DNA of 7,280 nt from Candidatus Latescibacterota bacterium (GCA_018667995.1 JABIQT010000935.1:1-7280); one strand, 5' to 3'. Positions 1,366-7,280 are shown, numbered from the stretch's first letter. A program made the numbers and translations. Notes: a model not told the origin generated them from the letters alone.

Positions 1366-1476
1366 ATGTTCTCACTGAACCGGTTCGACAACGCCATGGT
1401 ACAGATTGAGCAGCGTCCACTAGAGTCGGTATGTCAGCAGATGCCCGGCATCCCCGAGCCGAAATCATACCTATGA
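1366..1476 (+). other. Small open frame bridging ATPase and permease (possible coupling ORF)
   Basis: An ATG two bases after the ATPase stop opens a 36-codon frame (MFSLNRFDNAMVQIEQRP at its start, ending EPKSYL). Its TGA (1474-1476) overlaps the ATG at 1473 as ATGA. AGGGA at 1349-1353 lies 12 bases upstream, rather far for a Shine-Dalgarno. The peptide resembles no family I know and has no membrane segment. It may be a real small protein, a translated spacer that passes ribosomes from the ATPase gene to the permease start (which has no Shine-Dalgarno), or chance. A short open frame of this length is not rare by chance. Confidence 0.25.
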
Positions 1477-4400
1477 TTCAATCCCTGAAATACATACGGA
1501 CGATTGCAGCAGCAGAGAGATCTATTCTGTTCCGGACACCGAAGGTCTGGGTCTTAGGAAGTATAGGTGGGTTCTTTACGTTCATGCTCCTGCTGGCCAC
1601 AACCATTGCAAGCATCTTTGACAACAGTCCCGAGGGCGAATTCATGCTTGAAGGGACCGATGCATGGATTGCACTCTACCTGTTCAGCTATGCGCAGGCT
1701 ATTATTATCATATTTGTGGCGGCAGATTTCAGAAAGGCTGAGACACAGGCACATCTGGACCAGGTCATGCTGTCCCGTCCGATGACAACCGCCAACTGGG
1801 TCCTGGGAAAATACATGGGAATCGTCAGTGGTCTGTTGATGATAAACCTCTTCTTTCTCGGGCTTTCAGCCATAGGTCGGCTGGTAAAAATGTACGTCCT
1901 GGATGTAAACTTCAACATGATGCCGGCCGCCCAGTATTTCATGATCGCAACTGTTCCCTCCATTCTCTTCATGACTGCTCTGGTTTTCTTTCTAATCAGC
2001 CTTGTTCGGGTTCAAGCGGTAGCTATTCTCATTCCTCTGGCATATGTGGCAGGTATACTCTTCTATGTCCGCGACGAATATGAGGGCTTGTTCGACTATG
2101 CCTGTTTCGCAATCCCGCTGTTCAACAGTGATCTGATCGGATTCGGAGAAATCGAATCAGTCCTGTGGCAGCGCGCATTTTATCTTCTGCTTTCAGCCGC
2201 CCTTGTCTGCGGTACCATTCTCCTCTATCCACGGCTCCATCAGTCCGCGTTCTCCAGGCGCATCACCGGGACAACGGGCATACTGACCTTCAGCGGGGCG
2301 GTAGTTGTAGTCTCATCAATCTGGACTCAGTATGCCTCCCAACAGGACGTGCGGAATGAGATGCGGGCTCATCATGTCGAGAGAGCGGCTGCCGTACTTC
2401 CGTCGGTAACCCACTATGATTTGGATATAAGCCTTGATTCAGAATCAAACCCGCTAGCTATAGAGGCGCAGTTAACGGTACATAACCCGCATTCCTCTCC
2501 CATCGACACTCTGCTGTTCTCCTTGAACAGCGGCCTAACTGTAACAAATGCTATATGGGCGGGACGCGCAGTTCCCTTGATTCATGACAGCCATCTGATA
2601 CGTCTGGCACTGCCAACCCCCCTCGGCGTGGGTAAGACCGATTCTCTGAAACTGTCCTATACCGGCGACATTGATGGACAATACTTCACCTTGGAAAGAT
2701 TGGATGAAGCAGAAGGTCTGATCCCGAAATCCGGCGACGGTCCCTGGACAAAGGACAACATATCAGCATGGGCAGATGAGCGAATCGCCGTTCTTCCTGC
2801 CCAGAGTGGATGGTATCCGGTACCCGGCGTCGCGTCGGGCTATGCCTATGACAGTCCAAAGCCAGCTAACTTCTCGACGGCGACTATCCGAGTTGAAACG
2901 CCGAGCGATGTATATGCTATCGCGCAGGGGGCTCGGGTTTCTGAATCATCCGAAGGTGGGCGACGAACAACCCATTTTAACGCTGAAACCCCGGTGCCGG
3001 CCCTCTCCTTGAACGCTGGCCCCTATGAGAGACTAAGTCGCAAATTCTCTCAAACAGAGGTGGAGCTATACTTCTATTCTGGGCATCTAATGGGGTACGA
3101 GGCATTTGACGATGTTGCGGACACCTGTTACCAAGCTGTAGAAAGGCTGTTTGAACTATTCGAACAAGCAGCAGGGACACCCTATCCCTATCCAAAACTG
3201 TCCTTCGTAGAGGTCCCGCTTCAGATGCAGGTCTACACGACCCTCCACGGCGTGGACAACGTACTCCTGCAGCCGGGTGTCGTTATGATCGAGGAGCTTC
3301 GGTTAGCAGGCAAGAGGTTGGACAAGAGAATCGAATCTTCGATCAGGAATGCCCAACGAAGAGGTCGGGACGATACGGAATGGCGAATAAAGAGGGACGT
3401 ATTCGTAAGAACCGTACTCGATGTGCTGATACCGGACCGTGCCCAACTCGATGGCAGTCTGTTGACGCCCCTGCGCAATTACTACCATTTCCGCGTGGAC
3501 ATTGCCAGCCCGCTTCTCCGTAGAGCGCTGGAACTTCAACTCCACGAAGAAGCCGAACGACTCACGTACGACACGTTCTTTCCCGACCGATTCAACCAGC
3601 GACTTAGTTCCAATGAGCGCATGCGACTCAACAATCAGGAATGGTCAGTACGGCGCAGATACGGGATTGAGGTGGATACGGTACTGGCAACATTAGAGAT
3701 GACACCTTTAAAGGAACTCAGGCCCGAGGGCGATGGCAAAAAGTACCGGGCGGTTTTGGATTTCAAGGGTGCTCCTGTACTCGACATGCTAGAAGATTGG
3801 GCAGACGAAGGCGCCTACAAGAAGGCTCTGCGTTCTCTACTCACGGATCACCTGTACCAACGTGTTACGCTGGATGGATTTCTCGATATGGTGCAGACAT
3901 TCAGTGAGGCTGATGTGGAATCTTTCGCGGACCAATGGTTTAACAAGGCGACGTTCCCAGGCTATCAAATCACCCGCCCGGAGGTAGAAAAGTGGGATAC
4001 CGGAGAAATGCAGGTGGCCTACCGTACCCGATTCAATGTCAGAAATGGTGAATCGGGCGACGGCTTCGTCCGGGTGGTCATGAAGACTCGCAGAGACAAG
4101 GTGCGCCGCTCTCTCTCACTACGAAGCTATGAGGAGAAGGAAGTCCACATGGTAACGTCCGAAGTGCCTGAAAACGTTCAAATCGTGCCATTCTTTGCAC
4201 GAAACCGTGGCAACATCATGCGTCCGGTGACCATGGCCTCGGGCCTTCGCAAAGGCGCACCTCGAGATACTTCATTCACGGTGGAATCCACAATGGATTC
4301 GCTCGTCTTTATCCTTGATGACCGTGACGAGGGCTTCTTCATGCCCAGCATTGCTGAGGCGAAATACCTGCGACCGGAAGCACAGATGAATAGTTGGAAA

Positions 4401-4751
4401 TATCTGACGCGGGCAGAAGCATATGGTCGATACATCTTCGGATACAGGTACCGCTGGCAAAGCGACGGCGACTTCCCGGTTCGATGGGAAACGAATGTTC
4501 CGCGCTCTGGAGACTATGAGTTAAGTCTCCATATGCCGCCACGGCTGGCACTGCAACGACGATTCTTCATCAACGTGGATGCGGCGGACGGTCCGCACGA
4601 AGTTATGATTCAGCCACAGGGCACCAAGAGTGAATGGTGGCCCATGGGAAAGTTTACTTTTGACAAAGACAAAAAAGCCGTTATCGAACTGTCAGACGCT
4701 GGAAAGGGATATATCATCGCTGACGCTCTCAGATGGACGTACATAAAATGA
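1473..4751 (+). CDS. ABC-2 permease fused to a degenerate M1-peptidase-like region and golvesin-like C-terminus
   Basis: This is a 1092-residue inner-membrane protein. Residues 1-285 are an ABC-2 type permease with about seven hydrophobic segments (near 26-47, 66-84, 111-134, 155-178, 181-199, 234-252, 268-284). Seven helices with the N-terminus inside would place the rest in the periplasm. Residues about 312-530 resemble the beta-rich N-terminal domain of M1 aminopeptidases (THYDLDISLDSE, later WYPVPG and a VYAIAQG strand). LHGVDNVLLQP (591-601) lies where M1 enzymes carry their GxMEN-like loop. Residues about 764-831 resemble the M1 C-terminal part (FKGAPVLDML, DGFLDMV, WFNKATFPGY). No HEXXH zinc motif occurs anywhere, so peptidase activity is unlikely. 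Residues about 960-1092 resemble a golvesin C-terminal domain (GDYELSLHMP, SEWWPMGKFTF, GYIIADALRW). ABC permease/M1 fusions are known in Bacteroidota. I prefer the start at 1473 because its N-terminus is typical of ABC-2 permeases; 1431 (14 residues longer) is the alternative. The stop overlaps a downstream ATG as ATGA. Confidence 0.85.
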   Translation: MIQSLKYIRTIAAAERSILFRTPKVWVLGSIGGFFTFMLLLATTIASIFDNSPEGEFMLEGTDAWIALYLFSYAQAIIIIFVAADFRKAETQAHLDQVMLSRPMTTANWVLGKYMGIVSGLLMINLFFLGLSAIGRLVKMYVLDVNFNMMPAAQYFMIATVPSILFMTALVFFLISLVRVQAVAILIPLAYVAGILFYVRDEYEGLFDYACFAIPLFNSDLIGFGEIESVLWQRAFYLLLSAALVCGTILLYPRLHQSAFSRRITGTTGILTFSGAVVVVSSIWTQYASQQDVRNEMRAHHVERAAAVLPSVTHYDLDISLDSESNPLAIEAQLTVHNPHSSPIDTLLFSLNSGLTVTNAIWAGRAVPLIHDSHLIRLALPTPLGVGKTDSLKLSYTGDIDGQYFTLERLDEAEGLIPKSGDGPWTKDNISAWADERIAVLPAQSGWYPVPGVASGYAYDSPKPANFSTATIRVETPSDVYAIAQGARVSESSEGGRRTTHFNAETPVPALSLNAGPYERLSRKFSQTEVELYFYSGHLMGYEAFDDVADTCYQAVERLFELFEQAAGTPYPYPKLSFVEVPLQMQVYTTLHGVDNVLLQPGVVMIEELRLAGKRLDKRIESSIRNAQRRGRDDTEWRIKRDVFVRTVLDVLIPDRAQLDGSLLTPLRNYYHFRVDIASPLLRRALELQLHEEAERLTYDTFFPDRFNQRLSSNERMRLNNQEWSVRRRYGIEVDTVLATLEMTPLKELRPEGDGKKYRAVLDFKGAPVLDMLEDWADEGAYKKALRSLLTDHLYQRVTLDGFLDMVQTFSEADVESFADQWFNKATFPGYQITRPEVEKWDTGEMQVAYRTRFNVRNGESGDGFVRVVMKTRRDKVRRSLSLRSYEEKEVHMVTSEVPENVQIVPFFARNRGNIMRPVTMASGLRKGAPRDTSFTVESTMDSLVFILDDRDEGFFMPSIAEAKYLRPEAQMNSWKYLTRAEAYGRYIFGYRYRWQSDGDFPVRWETNVPRSGDYELSLHMPPRLALQRRFFINVDAADGPHEVMIQPQGTKSEWWPMGKFTFDKDKKAVIELSDAGKGYIIADALRWTYIK

Positions 4752-4797
4752 GAAACAACTATTTGATGCCACGCGACCGGAAAAAAAGGTCATTTAC

Positions 4798-4808
4798 AAG
4801 GGGAGGGG
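4798..4808 (+). promoter_or_regulatory. Strong Shine-Dalgarno that sets the TolC-like start
   Basis: AAGGGGAGGGG ends 2 bases before the ATG at 4811, with its GGAGG core at 4802-4806, four bases upstream. It is the strongest ribosome-binding site in the window and favours 4811 over the upstream in-frame ATGs at 4733, 4748 and 4766. Confidence 0.6.
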
Positions 4809-4810
4809 CC

Positions 4811-6316
4811 ATGATTGGGCGGGTCATCCGAAACATCTGTTTGATATCGGGCCTACTGGCAATTACAGCTCCGGTCAGAGGTCAAGCGCCTGCCGTTCTT
4901 ACACTGGAACAGAGTATAAAGGTGGCTCTTGGTCAGAGCTACGATGTCAAGAGGTTGGAACAATCTCTCATTAGCTCACGCATGAATCTACGGTCGGCCG
5001 AGGCCGGCTTCAAGAGCAACGGCGAACTACAGCTCTCCAGTCTGCCCAATTTTCAACAGAATGAGCGACGTACGGCGCTACCGGGCGGAACATTTATTTT
5101 TGAGCGACAACAGTTCATGGACCTGCAGACAGATGTCCTGGCCAACCAGCCCGTTGGCCGTACTGATGGTGTAATCTCACTTGTGGGATCGTTACAGAGA
5201 TTTCAGCAATTTGACGTACTTAATCAGGCCACCAACACCACTTCCGACCCATCTCAATACGGTACTCAGGTTCGTGTCCAATTCCGGCAACCACTTTTTA
5301 CATACAATAGGCTCAAGCTGGGCCTTCGCAGAGCTGAATTGAATCTTCAAACCACGCTTCAAACCTATTCTCGAAACCAGCTCGATATTGTATTCAACGT
5401 CTCCAGCCGTTTTTATGATCTGTTTCGCTCCCAGCAACAGCTGATGCTGGATGAACTACAGGTAAGCCAGGCTGAAGAAGCATTCCGAATCGCCCGCCTC
5501 AAAGCTGATGCAGGACTGCTCGCCGAGGTAGAAGTACTCCGTCTGGACATCGATCTTGCCAATGCCAGAAATACGGCAGCCAACAGCGAAGCCACCCTGA
5601 GGCAGAACGAAGATACCTTCAAACTCCAGATCGGGATAGCAATCGAAACGCCTATCGAGGTTACCACCGACCTGGCCTACCGGGAGGTCAGTGTCCCCCT
5701 GGAGAGGGCTGTCGACGAGGCACTCACACGTCGTACGGAACTACGGACTGATGATATCACCATTCAGCTCAGCCAACTTAGCATCACGGAGACGGACGCC
5801 CAACGCGAAGTATCGGGTGAGCTTTTCGTAAGCTATGGTTTATTCAGCAGGCGTGACCGGTTACTAGACGCATTCAATCAGTTTAATAACGATCGCCGTG
5901 TCCAGTTCTCGGTCAACGTTCCGCTGTGGGATTGGTCCCAGAATCGATATGCGGTTCAAGCTGCGCAGGCCACATTGGAGAATGACCGCCTGGCAAGAGA
6001 GAATCGTGTGAACACTATTAAGCAGGAAATCCGGGCGACCGTTCGTAGCTTTGAGTCGGCACAGCAACGGGTCGAGATCACAAGACGCAGCGAGGAGCTG
6101 GCGGAACAGAGCTACCGAATTAGTTTCCTGCGATTTGAGAATGGTGAGGTCAGTACACAGGATCTGGCTCTGGAGCAAAATCGACTAGCCCAGGCACGCA
6201 GGAATTCACTGGATGCGATCATCGATTACAAACAGTCACTGGCGGATCTCCGACGCAAAACACTCTGGGATTTTGAGAAAGACGAACCGGTACCTGTTGA
6301 CGTCGAGCAGAGATAG
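4811..6316 (+). CDS. TolC-type outer-membrane efflux protein
   Basis: This is the outer-membrane channel of a tripartite export system. From ATG 4811 the protein has 501 residues, a normal length for the family. Residues 1-26 look like a Sec signal peptide (basic MIGRVIR, hydrophobic core to about residue 20, likely cleavage near VRGQA). The mature part starts with the usual LTLEQSIKVAL helix. The family's two-fold repeat is visible. Each half has a beta-strand pair ending in PLF (RQPLFTYNRLKLGL, 159-172) or PLW (NVPLWDWSQNRYAV, 369-382), followed by long helices with coiled-coil character (173-275 and 383-480). The last helix ends with IIDYKQSLADLRRKT, similar to the DY-x-L-A-L end typical of OEP domains. 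There are no cysteines beyond the signal. Upstream in-frame ATGs exist, including 4748, which overlaps the permease stop as ATGA, but the strong Shine-Dalgarno and the clean signal peptide support 4811. The substrate is unknown. Confidence 0.9.
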   Translation: MIGRVIRNICLISGLLAITAPVRGQAPAVLTLEQSIKVALGQSYDVKRLEQSLISSRMNLRSAEAGFKSNGELQLSSLPNFQQNERRTALPGGTFIFERQQFMDLQTDVLANQPVGRTDGVISLVGSLQRFQQFDVLNQATNTTSDPSQYGTQVRVQFRQPLFTYNRLKLGLRRAELNLQTTLQTYSRNQLDIVFNVSSRFYDLFRSQQQLMLDELQVSQAEEAFRIARLKADAGLLAEVEVLRLDIDLANARNTAANSEATLRQNEDTFKLQIGIAIETPIEVTTDLAYREVSVPLERAVDEALTRRTELRTDDITIQLSQLSITETDAQREVSGELFVSYGLFSRRDRLLDAFNQFNNDRRVQFSVNVPLWDWSQNRYAVQAAQATLENDRLARENRVNTIKQEIRATVRSFESAQQRVEITRRSEELAEQSYRISFLRFENGEVSTQDLALEQNRLAQARRNSLDAIIDYKQSLADLRRKTLWDFEKDEPVPVDVEQR

Positions 6317-6427: not shown

Positions 6428-7280
6428 ATGATACGCTATATGAGATTACTCACTCCCCTCCTCGCCCTGGTGTTTTTTCACTGTGGCGACAACAATGACG
6501 AATCGACTGCGGAGCTGAACATCCCGGTCAACGTGGAGGTGGTGGTGCGGAGTGACATCGCGGATTATATCTCCACGACCGGTACCGTACACGCCCAACA
6601 AGAGGAGCGTGTGACCACAGAGGTCGACGGTTTAATTCGGTATTCCGTAGGTCTTAACGTGGGAGAATCGGTCAGCAAGGGTCAGCTCCTTGCCGAGATC
6701 GAAAATCCCGAGTATCTCCTGGACGTGCGGGTAGAGTCCCAGAAGATGGCCATGGACAATGCCCAGCGAGAACTTGGAAAGCAGGAGGCGCTATTTGAAG
6801 AGGGCGGTGTCACAGAGAAGGAATTGGAGACGGCGAGACGGTCTGCGCTCGATGCAAGACTCAATTACGAGTCCGCCCTGCTGAGAGCCGAAAAGATTCA
6901 GGTTAAGTCCCCCATTTCTGGAATCGTAACGGGACTCAATACCGGGGCAAACGGAACACGAATCACGATGGGGTTCCAGATCTGCACCATCCAGAACTAT
7001 GGTATCGTTGAAATTGCCGTCAAACTACCCAATACGGACCTGGGGCAAGTTCGTAACCGGCAGCAGGTCCTGATCAGCAATTATGCACTACCCGATGAAG
7101 TCTTCCCCGGTGAGATACACACGATCGGTCCGGCCATTGATCCTCAGACCCGTACCTTCGCGGTCACGATTCGCGTCATCAACAGGAACCTTCGACTCCG
7201 GCCGGGGATGTTTGTGAAGGTGGATATCATTCGTGAACAGCACCCACAAGTCATCGTTATCTCCAAAGAGGCACTTCAAA
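6428..7280 (+). CDS. Periplasmic adaptor (membrane-fusion) lipoprotein, RND efflux type; C-terminus beyond window
   Basis: This adaptor would link an inner-membrane pump to the TolC-like channel encoded upstream. 284 codons are present and the frame is open at the edge. Residues 1-18 are a short signal peptide ending at Cys19, probably lipidated, although the residues before it (FFH) are unusual for a lipobox. The domain order is typical of RND adaptors: a strand with GTVHAQQEERV (52-61); first lipoyl half with VGLNVGESVSKGQLLAEIENPEY (74-96); a short helical hairpin (about 97-155); second lipoyl half KSPISGIVTGL (160-170); a beta-barrel (about 190-240) with PNTDLGQV; then PAIDPQTRTFAVTIRV and LRLRPGMFVKVDI (255-267), a hallmark of the family. 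The membrane-proximal domain is starting at the edge (VIVISKEAL). Lipid-anchored adaptors of this type are most often followed by an RND pump gene. HlyD- or MacA-type partnership with the ABC permease is the alternative. Confidence 0.9.
   Translation, partial: MIRYMRLLTPLLALVFFHCGDNNDESTAELNIPVNVEVVVRSDIADYISTTGTVHAQQEERVTTEVDGLIRYSVGLNVGESVSKGQLLAEIENPEYLLDVRVESQKMAMDNAQRELGKQEALFEEGGVTEKELETARRSALDARLNYESALLRAEKIQVKSPISGIVTGLNTGANGTRITMGFQICTIQNYGIVEIAVKLPNTDLGQVRNRQQVLISNYALPDEVFPGEIHTIGPAIDPQTRTFAVTIRVINRNLRLRPGMFVKVDIIREQHPQVIVISKEALQ

Follow-up and report, generated by a model that had tools for sequence, protein, structure and literature searches.

The locus described here raises the question of what role a bacterial protein may have that joins a membrane domain, a peptidase-like region and a further C-terminal domain in one chain, and whose gene is followed by genes of an efflux pump. 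The window, which is the whole 7,280-nucleotide stretch of DNA that was analysed, comes from Candidatus Latescibacterota bacterium (GCA_018667995.1, JABIQT010000935.1:1-7280). It is the entire contig C601, which stops inside its last gene; the gene order was also followed in related genomes.

Architecture of the fusion protein

A preliminary description of this DNA had proposed a three-part protein of 1092 residues, in which a seven-segment permease carries about 800 periplasmic residues with an M1-like region and a separate golvesin-like beta domain at the C-terminus. Pfam, an AlphaFold2 (AF2) model and a structure search (M1 fold, Z 24.7) agree on this architecture, with the parts located as follows.

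1473-4751, + strand: fusion of ABC-2 permease, pseudo-M1 region and Golvesin_C domain (open reading frame of 1092 residues)
1473-2372, + strand: ABC-2 type membrane domain, residues 1-300, plus the seventh segment leading to the periplasm (AF2 helices, Pfam matches in the family, HH match)
2373-4292, + strand: M1-fold periplasmic region, residues 301-940, with domain I, degenerate domain II and beta-sandwich domain III (structure search)
3207-3218, + strand: VEVP, residues 579-582, at the position of the M1 GAMEN loop (conservation; alignment to active M1)
3309-3722, + strand: stretch in place of the HEXXH zinc helix, residues 613-750, without HEXXH in any relative
4293-4748, + strand: Golvesin_C domain, residues 941-1092, of which 973-1088 is the Pfam part (Pfam; profile match to 6f2p)

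Another in-frame ATG lies 5' of position 1473, at 1431, but the alignments with homologues begin at the ATG at 1473. The AF2 model, built with 54 sequences, had a mean pLDDT of 84.6 and a pTM of 0.80; an earlier model based on 6 sequences (pLDDT 53.9) was set aside. Residues 1-303 form a helical membrane part with helices at 23-49, 62-93, 106-143, 150-177, 181-199, 228-251 and 259-303, after which comes a large beta/alpha part. The model fits seven membrane segments with the C-terminal stretch of about 790 residues in the periplasm, close to what had been described.

Assignment of the membrane part to the ABC-2 type draws on the family as well as on the window protein, whose own Pfam score is sub-threshold (12.9 bits). 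Among the 14 family members scanned, some match ABC2_membrane_2/_3 at 4e-5 and 8e-6, and an HH comparison (E 6e-17) aligned this part with the second of the two ABC-2 halves in active permease/M1 fusions. Together with the AF2 helices, these matches identify an ABC-2 membrane domain of about six segments. The Pfam matches of the family are to ABC-2 models and none is to FtsX/MacB models; the list from the structure search is filled by the M1 domain. Conservation along the chain is comparatively high in the ABC-2 and Golvesin parts. The protein is not the product of an assembly error or a chance joining of two genes, since similar length and identical domain order recur in more than 100 genomes.

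A predicted pseudopeptidase in the periplasm

The M1-like region has an M1 fold and not an unrelated one. Residues 301-826 of the AF2 model superpose on two-domain M1 peptidases, with the best Z of 24.7 for 6koy (397 residues, 3.4 Å). Larger M1 chains extend the match to residues 300-991 (about 990) with Z up to 24.1, and the structure search (VIA-align list) speaks to residues 300-989 of the fusion. In Pfam, Peptidase_M1 is matched above cut-off by residues 758-822 of the window protein (31.8 bits), which correspond to the end of the Pfam model, and by all 14 members scanned at E ≤ 0.1. The M1 domain of active permease/M1 fusions matches this part of the fusion at E 1e-16 (HH match).

The catalytic signatures of M1 peptidases are missing from the sequences compared. 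HEXXH was found in none of 14 aligned members and in none of 77 ORFs from further loci, some of them partial or duplicated, and the GXMEN exopeptidase motif was likewise found in none of the 14. Residues 613-750, which take the place of the zinc helix, belong to the less conserved portions of the chain. Because HEXXH is lacking in every member examined, the M1 part is predicted to be a catalytically dead pseudopeptidase across the family. Within the former catalytic domain, E580, P582, E608 and K765 are invariant in the family, and therefore a pocket may be kept.

The Golvesin-type domain

The C-terminal beta domain was recognized by Golvesin_C (PF25275) over residues 973-1088 with 52.0 bits, above the curated cut-off of 31.6, and the same model matched 14 of the 14 members scanned (E ≤ 0.1). 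The profile of the fusion family also matched the C-terminal module of the Paenibacillus xanthan lyase PXL (6f2p) at E 2.5e-12, which points to homology between the two domains, even though PXL is a secreted lyase and the fusion a predicted transporter subunit. PXL is reported to have an unclassified terminal xanthan-binding module (review, PMC10881899). We infer that this is the module matched at the C-terminus of 6f2p. By analogy, the Golvesin-type domain of the fusion is probably glycan-binding, which suggests a glycan-bearing substrate.

A seven-gene operon around the fusion

The window contains three further genes on the strand of the fusion.

494-1363, + strand: ABC ATPase (NBD1), operon gene 1 (Pfam ABC_tran, 105.6 bits)
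4733-6316, + strand: TolC-family outer membrane channel, the conserved next gene (Pfam OEP, 132 bits)
6428-7279, + strand: RND-type periplasmic adaptor (HlyD/MFP), cut by the contig end (NCBIfam RND_mfp, 138.5 bits, above cut-off)

The true start of the TolC gene probably lies downstream, near 4811, and the adaptor is probably a lipoprotein. At 2-361 on the - strand, a partial sigma-70-like sigma factor gene, probably of the ECF type, diverges from the operon (Sigma70_r2, 41.6 bits). Scans for promoters and terminators gave no clear excess over shuffled sequences, and a viral contig scan, which reaches close relatives only, found nothing.

When up to 20 kb around the fusion genes was examined in other genomes, a conserved order became apparent on a single strand: ATPase, fusion, TolC, adaptor, a first RND permease (RND1), a second RND permease with an ABC ATPase on the same chain (RND2::ABC), and a small membrane protein. 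All seven genes are present in 24 loci. RND permease, adaptor and TolC genes thus occur together in the operons of relatives; in the window, the end of the contig limits this set to TolC and adaptor. The NBD1 gene sits 5' of the fusion in nearly all loci, and its Walker A, signature, Walker B and H-loop motifs are intact across 42 loci, as in the cognate ATPase of an ABC-2 exporter. The window's own genome has the second half of the operon on contigs other than C601, and linkage of the two halves would follow by analogy with relatives.

The product of the last gene is a membrane protein of about 245 residues (for example L164:15387-16115, alignment A4) with the strongly conserved motif IFYPxxFGIQxDxDxRMLEILFGIPxYRYKVWLxR. 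It had no significant Pfam or NCBIfam match and resembles ABC-2 domains weakly (hhalign P 6e-4 to 7e-3, probability 6-29%). Among 395 Bacteroidota genomes, it occurs in exactly the same 6 as the fusion; in the window's own genome, whose assembly is incomplete, no copy was found.

Other arrangements of the fusion gene occur as well. Genome G097 has three orphan copies (L038, L039 and L047) without neighbouring ATPase, TolC or RND genes. Loci from Aminicenantes (L190, L191 and L071) have tandem fusion genes beside one ATPase, or the order fusion-ATPase-fusion, and a fusion heterodimer is possible in that lineage. On contig C190 of G102 (L072), two fusion genes of about 925 residues each face opposite ways, one at either end and each truncated by the contig end; this is possibly an assembly palindrome or two loci.

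An RND permease joined to an ABC ATPase

RND2 is a single chain of about 1580 residues with an AcrB-like permease and a C-terminal ABC ATPase, NBD2 (Pfam ACR_tran and ABC_tran). Copies were found in the window's own genome (L077, on contig C610), at L068:13733-18469, and as 29 long copies in other loci. In a relative of the window genome (G001, L224) the chimera is followed by the small membrane protein. RND2 keeps a TM4 aspartate (GMLLDNSVVVLEN), so that proton coupling is possible in this subunit, but NBD2 sits on the same chain. The motifs of NBD2 are intact, as in NBD1.

The two ATPases differ in the spacing of their N-terminal motifs. In the 15 of 29 loci in which the A-loop strand motif of NBD2 could be located, it stands 198-242 residues before Walker A, against 32-35 in NBD1. 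This long spacing is due to an insert of about 180 residues that has two to four hydrophobic segments and separates the first strand from Walker A. NBD1 of the operon is the closest ABC ATPase of NBD2 outside the chimera in all four genomes searched; in G000 the match was 7.7e-63, and the next ATPase followed at 6e-42. A tree with a single, unusable outgroup placed NBD1 in one group (90/84) apart from NBD2; it separates the two ATPases and does not give a rooted sister status. Separate RND2 and ATPase reading frames in G097 (L225) were considered as an ancestral state and set aside, as the frames overlap in a draft assembly and are possibly the result of a frameshift.

No paper on an RND-ABC chimera or an ABC-2/M1 fusion was found in the open-access literature, and a term search returned neither from the parts covered of a large review of tripartite systems.

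Distribution

Full-length relatives of the fusion occur in at least four phyla: Latescibacterota, Bacteroidota, Aminicenantes and one further small phylum, that of G097, a genome with four fusion copies. A relative from the window's own order (L008) is 59% identical to the window protein. Of 140 genomes surveyed from the Prolixibacter family, 127 have the fusion, and so do 6 of 395 Bacteroidota genomes sampled evenly across the phylum. Counts were 10 of 142 for the Aminicenantes class and 5 of 6 for the phylum of G097. The fusion is rare overall and nearly fixed in one family, and it is probably old. Cultured Bacteroidota with the fusion include Prolixibacter and Maribellus.

Comparison with known systems

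The statement in the preliminary description that permease/M1 fusions exist in Bacteroidota was borne out by five loci (L236-L240). Their proteins, of 1195-1265 residues with about 12 segments, resemble the window fusion in having ABC-2 and M1 parts in one chain and an adjoining ABC ATPase, and are homologous to it in both parts, i.e., in the second ABC-2 half and the M1 domain. Whereas they have two ABC-2 halves, an intact HEXXH and no Golvesin domain, the window fusion has one ABC-2 half, no HEXXH and a Golvesin domain. The adjoining ATPase is related to NBD1 (about 315 bits), and within the 10-12 kb read around these loci there were no TolC or RND profile matches. Because of the single ABC-2 half, the loss of HEXXH, the extra domain and the homology to active fusions, the window-type protein appears to be a distinct inactive branch of the permease/M1 fusions with an added domain.

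The remainder of the operon resembles MdtABC and AcrAB-TolC, in which RND permeases, an MFP adaptor and a TolC-family channel are encoded in one operon, and MdtBC likewise has two different RND subunits. Unlike these pumps, the operon has an RND subunit with a C-terminal ABC ATPase as well as an ABC-2 transporter. It shares with MacAB-TolC and other ABC tripartite exporters an ATPase-driven inner-membrane unit, a large periplasmic domain, an adaptor and TolC, and differs from MacAB-TolC by its ABC-2 membrane domain, its pseudo-M1/Golvesin periplasmic region and the additional RND pump. In HlyB, a type 1 exporter, an inactive C39-like domain recruits the substrate. Like the M1 fusions, PCAT and HlyB are ABC exporters joined to a peptidase domain, and some branches are active and others inactive, but that domain has the C39 fold and lies on the cytoplasmic side, whereas the fusion has an M1 fold on the periplasmic side. 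PMC8277102 describes the peptidase-containing ABC transporters as a class.

A possible combined ABC/RND export system

We propose that the fusion serves as membrane subunit of an ABC-2 exporter, has a dead-M1/Golvesin periplasmic part, and works within a combined ABC/RND system for envelope export, which the seven-gene operon encodes; we give this reading a probability of about 0.5. It is favoured because of the architecture, the dead active site, the homology to the active permease/M1 fusions, the operon order, the co-occurrence of genes, the RND2::ABC chimera, the closeness of NBD2 to NBD1, the intact motifs of both ATPases, the link through the Golvesin domain and the retention in one family. 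Complex formation, substrate and direction of transport are what we infer from these features. NBD1 and NBD2 would power the ABC-2 membrane domain, which perhaps pairs with the small membrane protein, and through ATP turnover a substrate that is amphiphilic or bears glycan would be extracted or flipped. In the periplasm, the pseudo-M1/Golvesin part may receive or recruit this substrate, the dead peptidase acting as a recruiting domain comparable to that of HlyB but on the periplasmic side, and the conduit of RND1/RND2, adaptor and TolC, covalently tied to NBD2, would expel it. Counting against the combined system, the orphan copies in G097 and the tandems in Aminicenantes indicate that the fusion can exist outside the exact seven-gene set; the weak ABC-2 resemblance of the small protein, its lack of a significant Pfam or NCBIfam match, the location of half of the operon on other contigs in the window's own genome, and the failure to find the small protein in that incomplete assembly also weigh against it. 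More tentatively, and with odds somewhat on the negative side, all parts could form one machine, in which the ABC-2 exporter with its pseudo-peptidase/glycan-binding domain is joined to a heteromeric RND pump, and ATP and proton motive force are coupled via an RND subunit in which a membrane-spanning insertion splits the ABC ATPase. This would be a new class of envelope transporter.

Several other explanations were weighed. The ABC-2 part might transport nothing, ATP hydrolysis instead moving the pseudo-M1/Golvesin domain so that the adaptor-TolC duct or the RND pump is opened or loaded, by mechanotransmission as in MacB. The very large periplasmic domain on the seventh segment, the tripartite pump genes in the same operon and the fact that no small-molecule site was identified speak for such a role. 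The ABC-2 type, however, is a membrane fold different from that of MacB and LolCE, its relatives are exporters, and the membrane domain is among the best conserved parts of the protein. Given this difference in fold and the presence of an RND pump and adaptor in the system already, we regard mechanotransmission as an unlikely rival. Slightly less probable still is a role in envelope lipid or glycolipid handling, with a lipid, lipoprotein or glycolipid being placed in the outer membrane or on the surface rather than outside the cell. That one family retains the fusion in 127 of 140 genomes would suit such a housekeeping function, as would the match of the Golvesin-type domain to a glycan-binding module, but TolC channels are normally exit ducts and the operon has no lipid-bridge protein.

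It is also conceivable, although we consider it a little more doubtful again, that the transcription unit holds two functionally separate systems, one a small ABC transporter and the other an RND-TolC drug pump, with regulation alone in common. RND-adaptor-TolC sets function alone elsewhere, and orphan fusion genes exist; set against this, RND2 and NBD2 form a single polypeptide, the last gene co-occurs exactly with the fusion, and the closest relative of NBD2 is NBD1. A still active, membrane-bound M1 aminopeptidase for the processing of exported peptides, to which the M1 fold and the HEXXH of related Bacteroidota fusions could point, was rejected as highly improbable, since HEXXH is lost in all members examined and the catalytic region is replaced by poorly conserved sequence.

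The preliminary description had viewed the C-terminal domain and the following efflux genes as belonging to no characterised system known to it. No family-level NCBIfam match was found for the fusion; the efflux genes are not incidental but belong to the conserved seven-gene operon. The fusion is a candidate new variant of the permease/M1 fusions, and the operon a candidate new class of hybrid exporter. The fusion also adds a case of an ABC-transporter peptidase domain that would have lost catalysis, here with an M1 fold and on the periplasmic side. RND pumps are powered by the proton gradient and ABC pumps by ATP, and the two are treated as separate classes of tripartite exporters. If an RND pump fused to an ABC ATPase indeed pairs with an ABC-2 permease, the operon would offer a natural way to test whether one conduit can run on both energy sources. 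Because almost all genomes of a Bacteroidota family that has cultured members retain it, the system is genetically testable.
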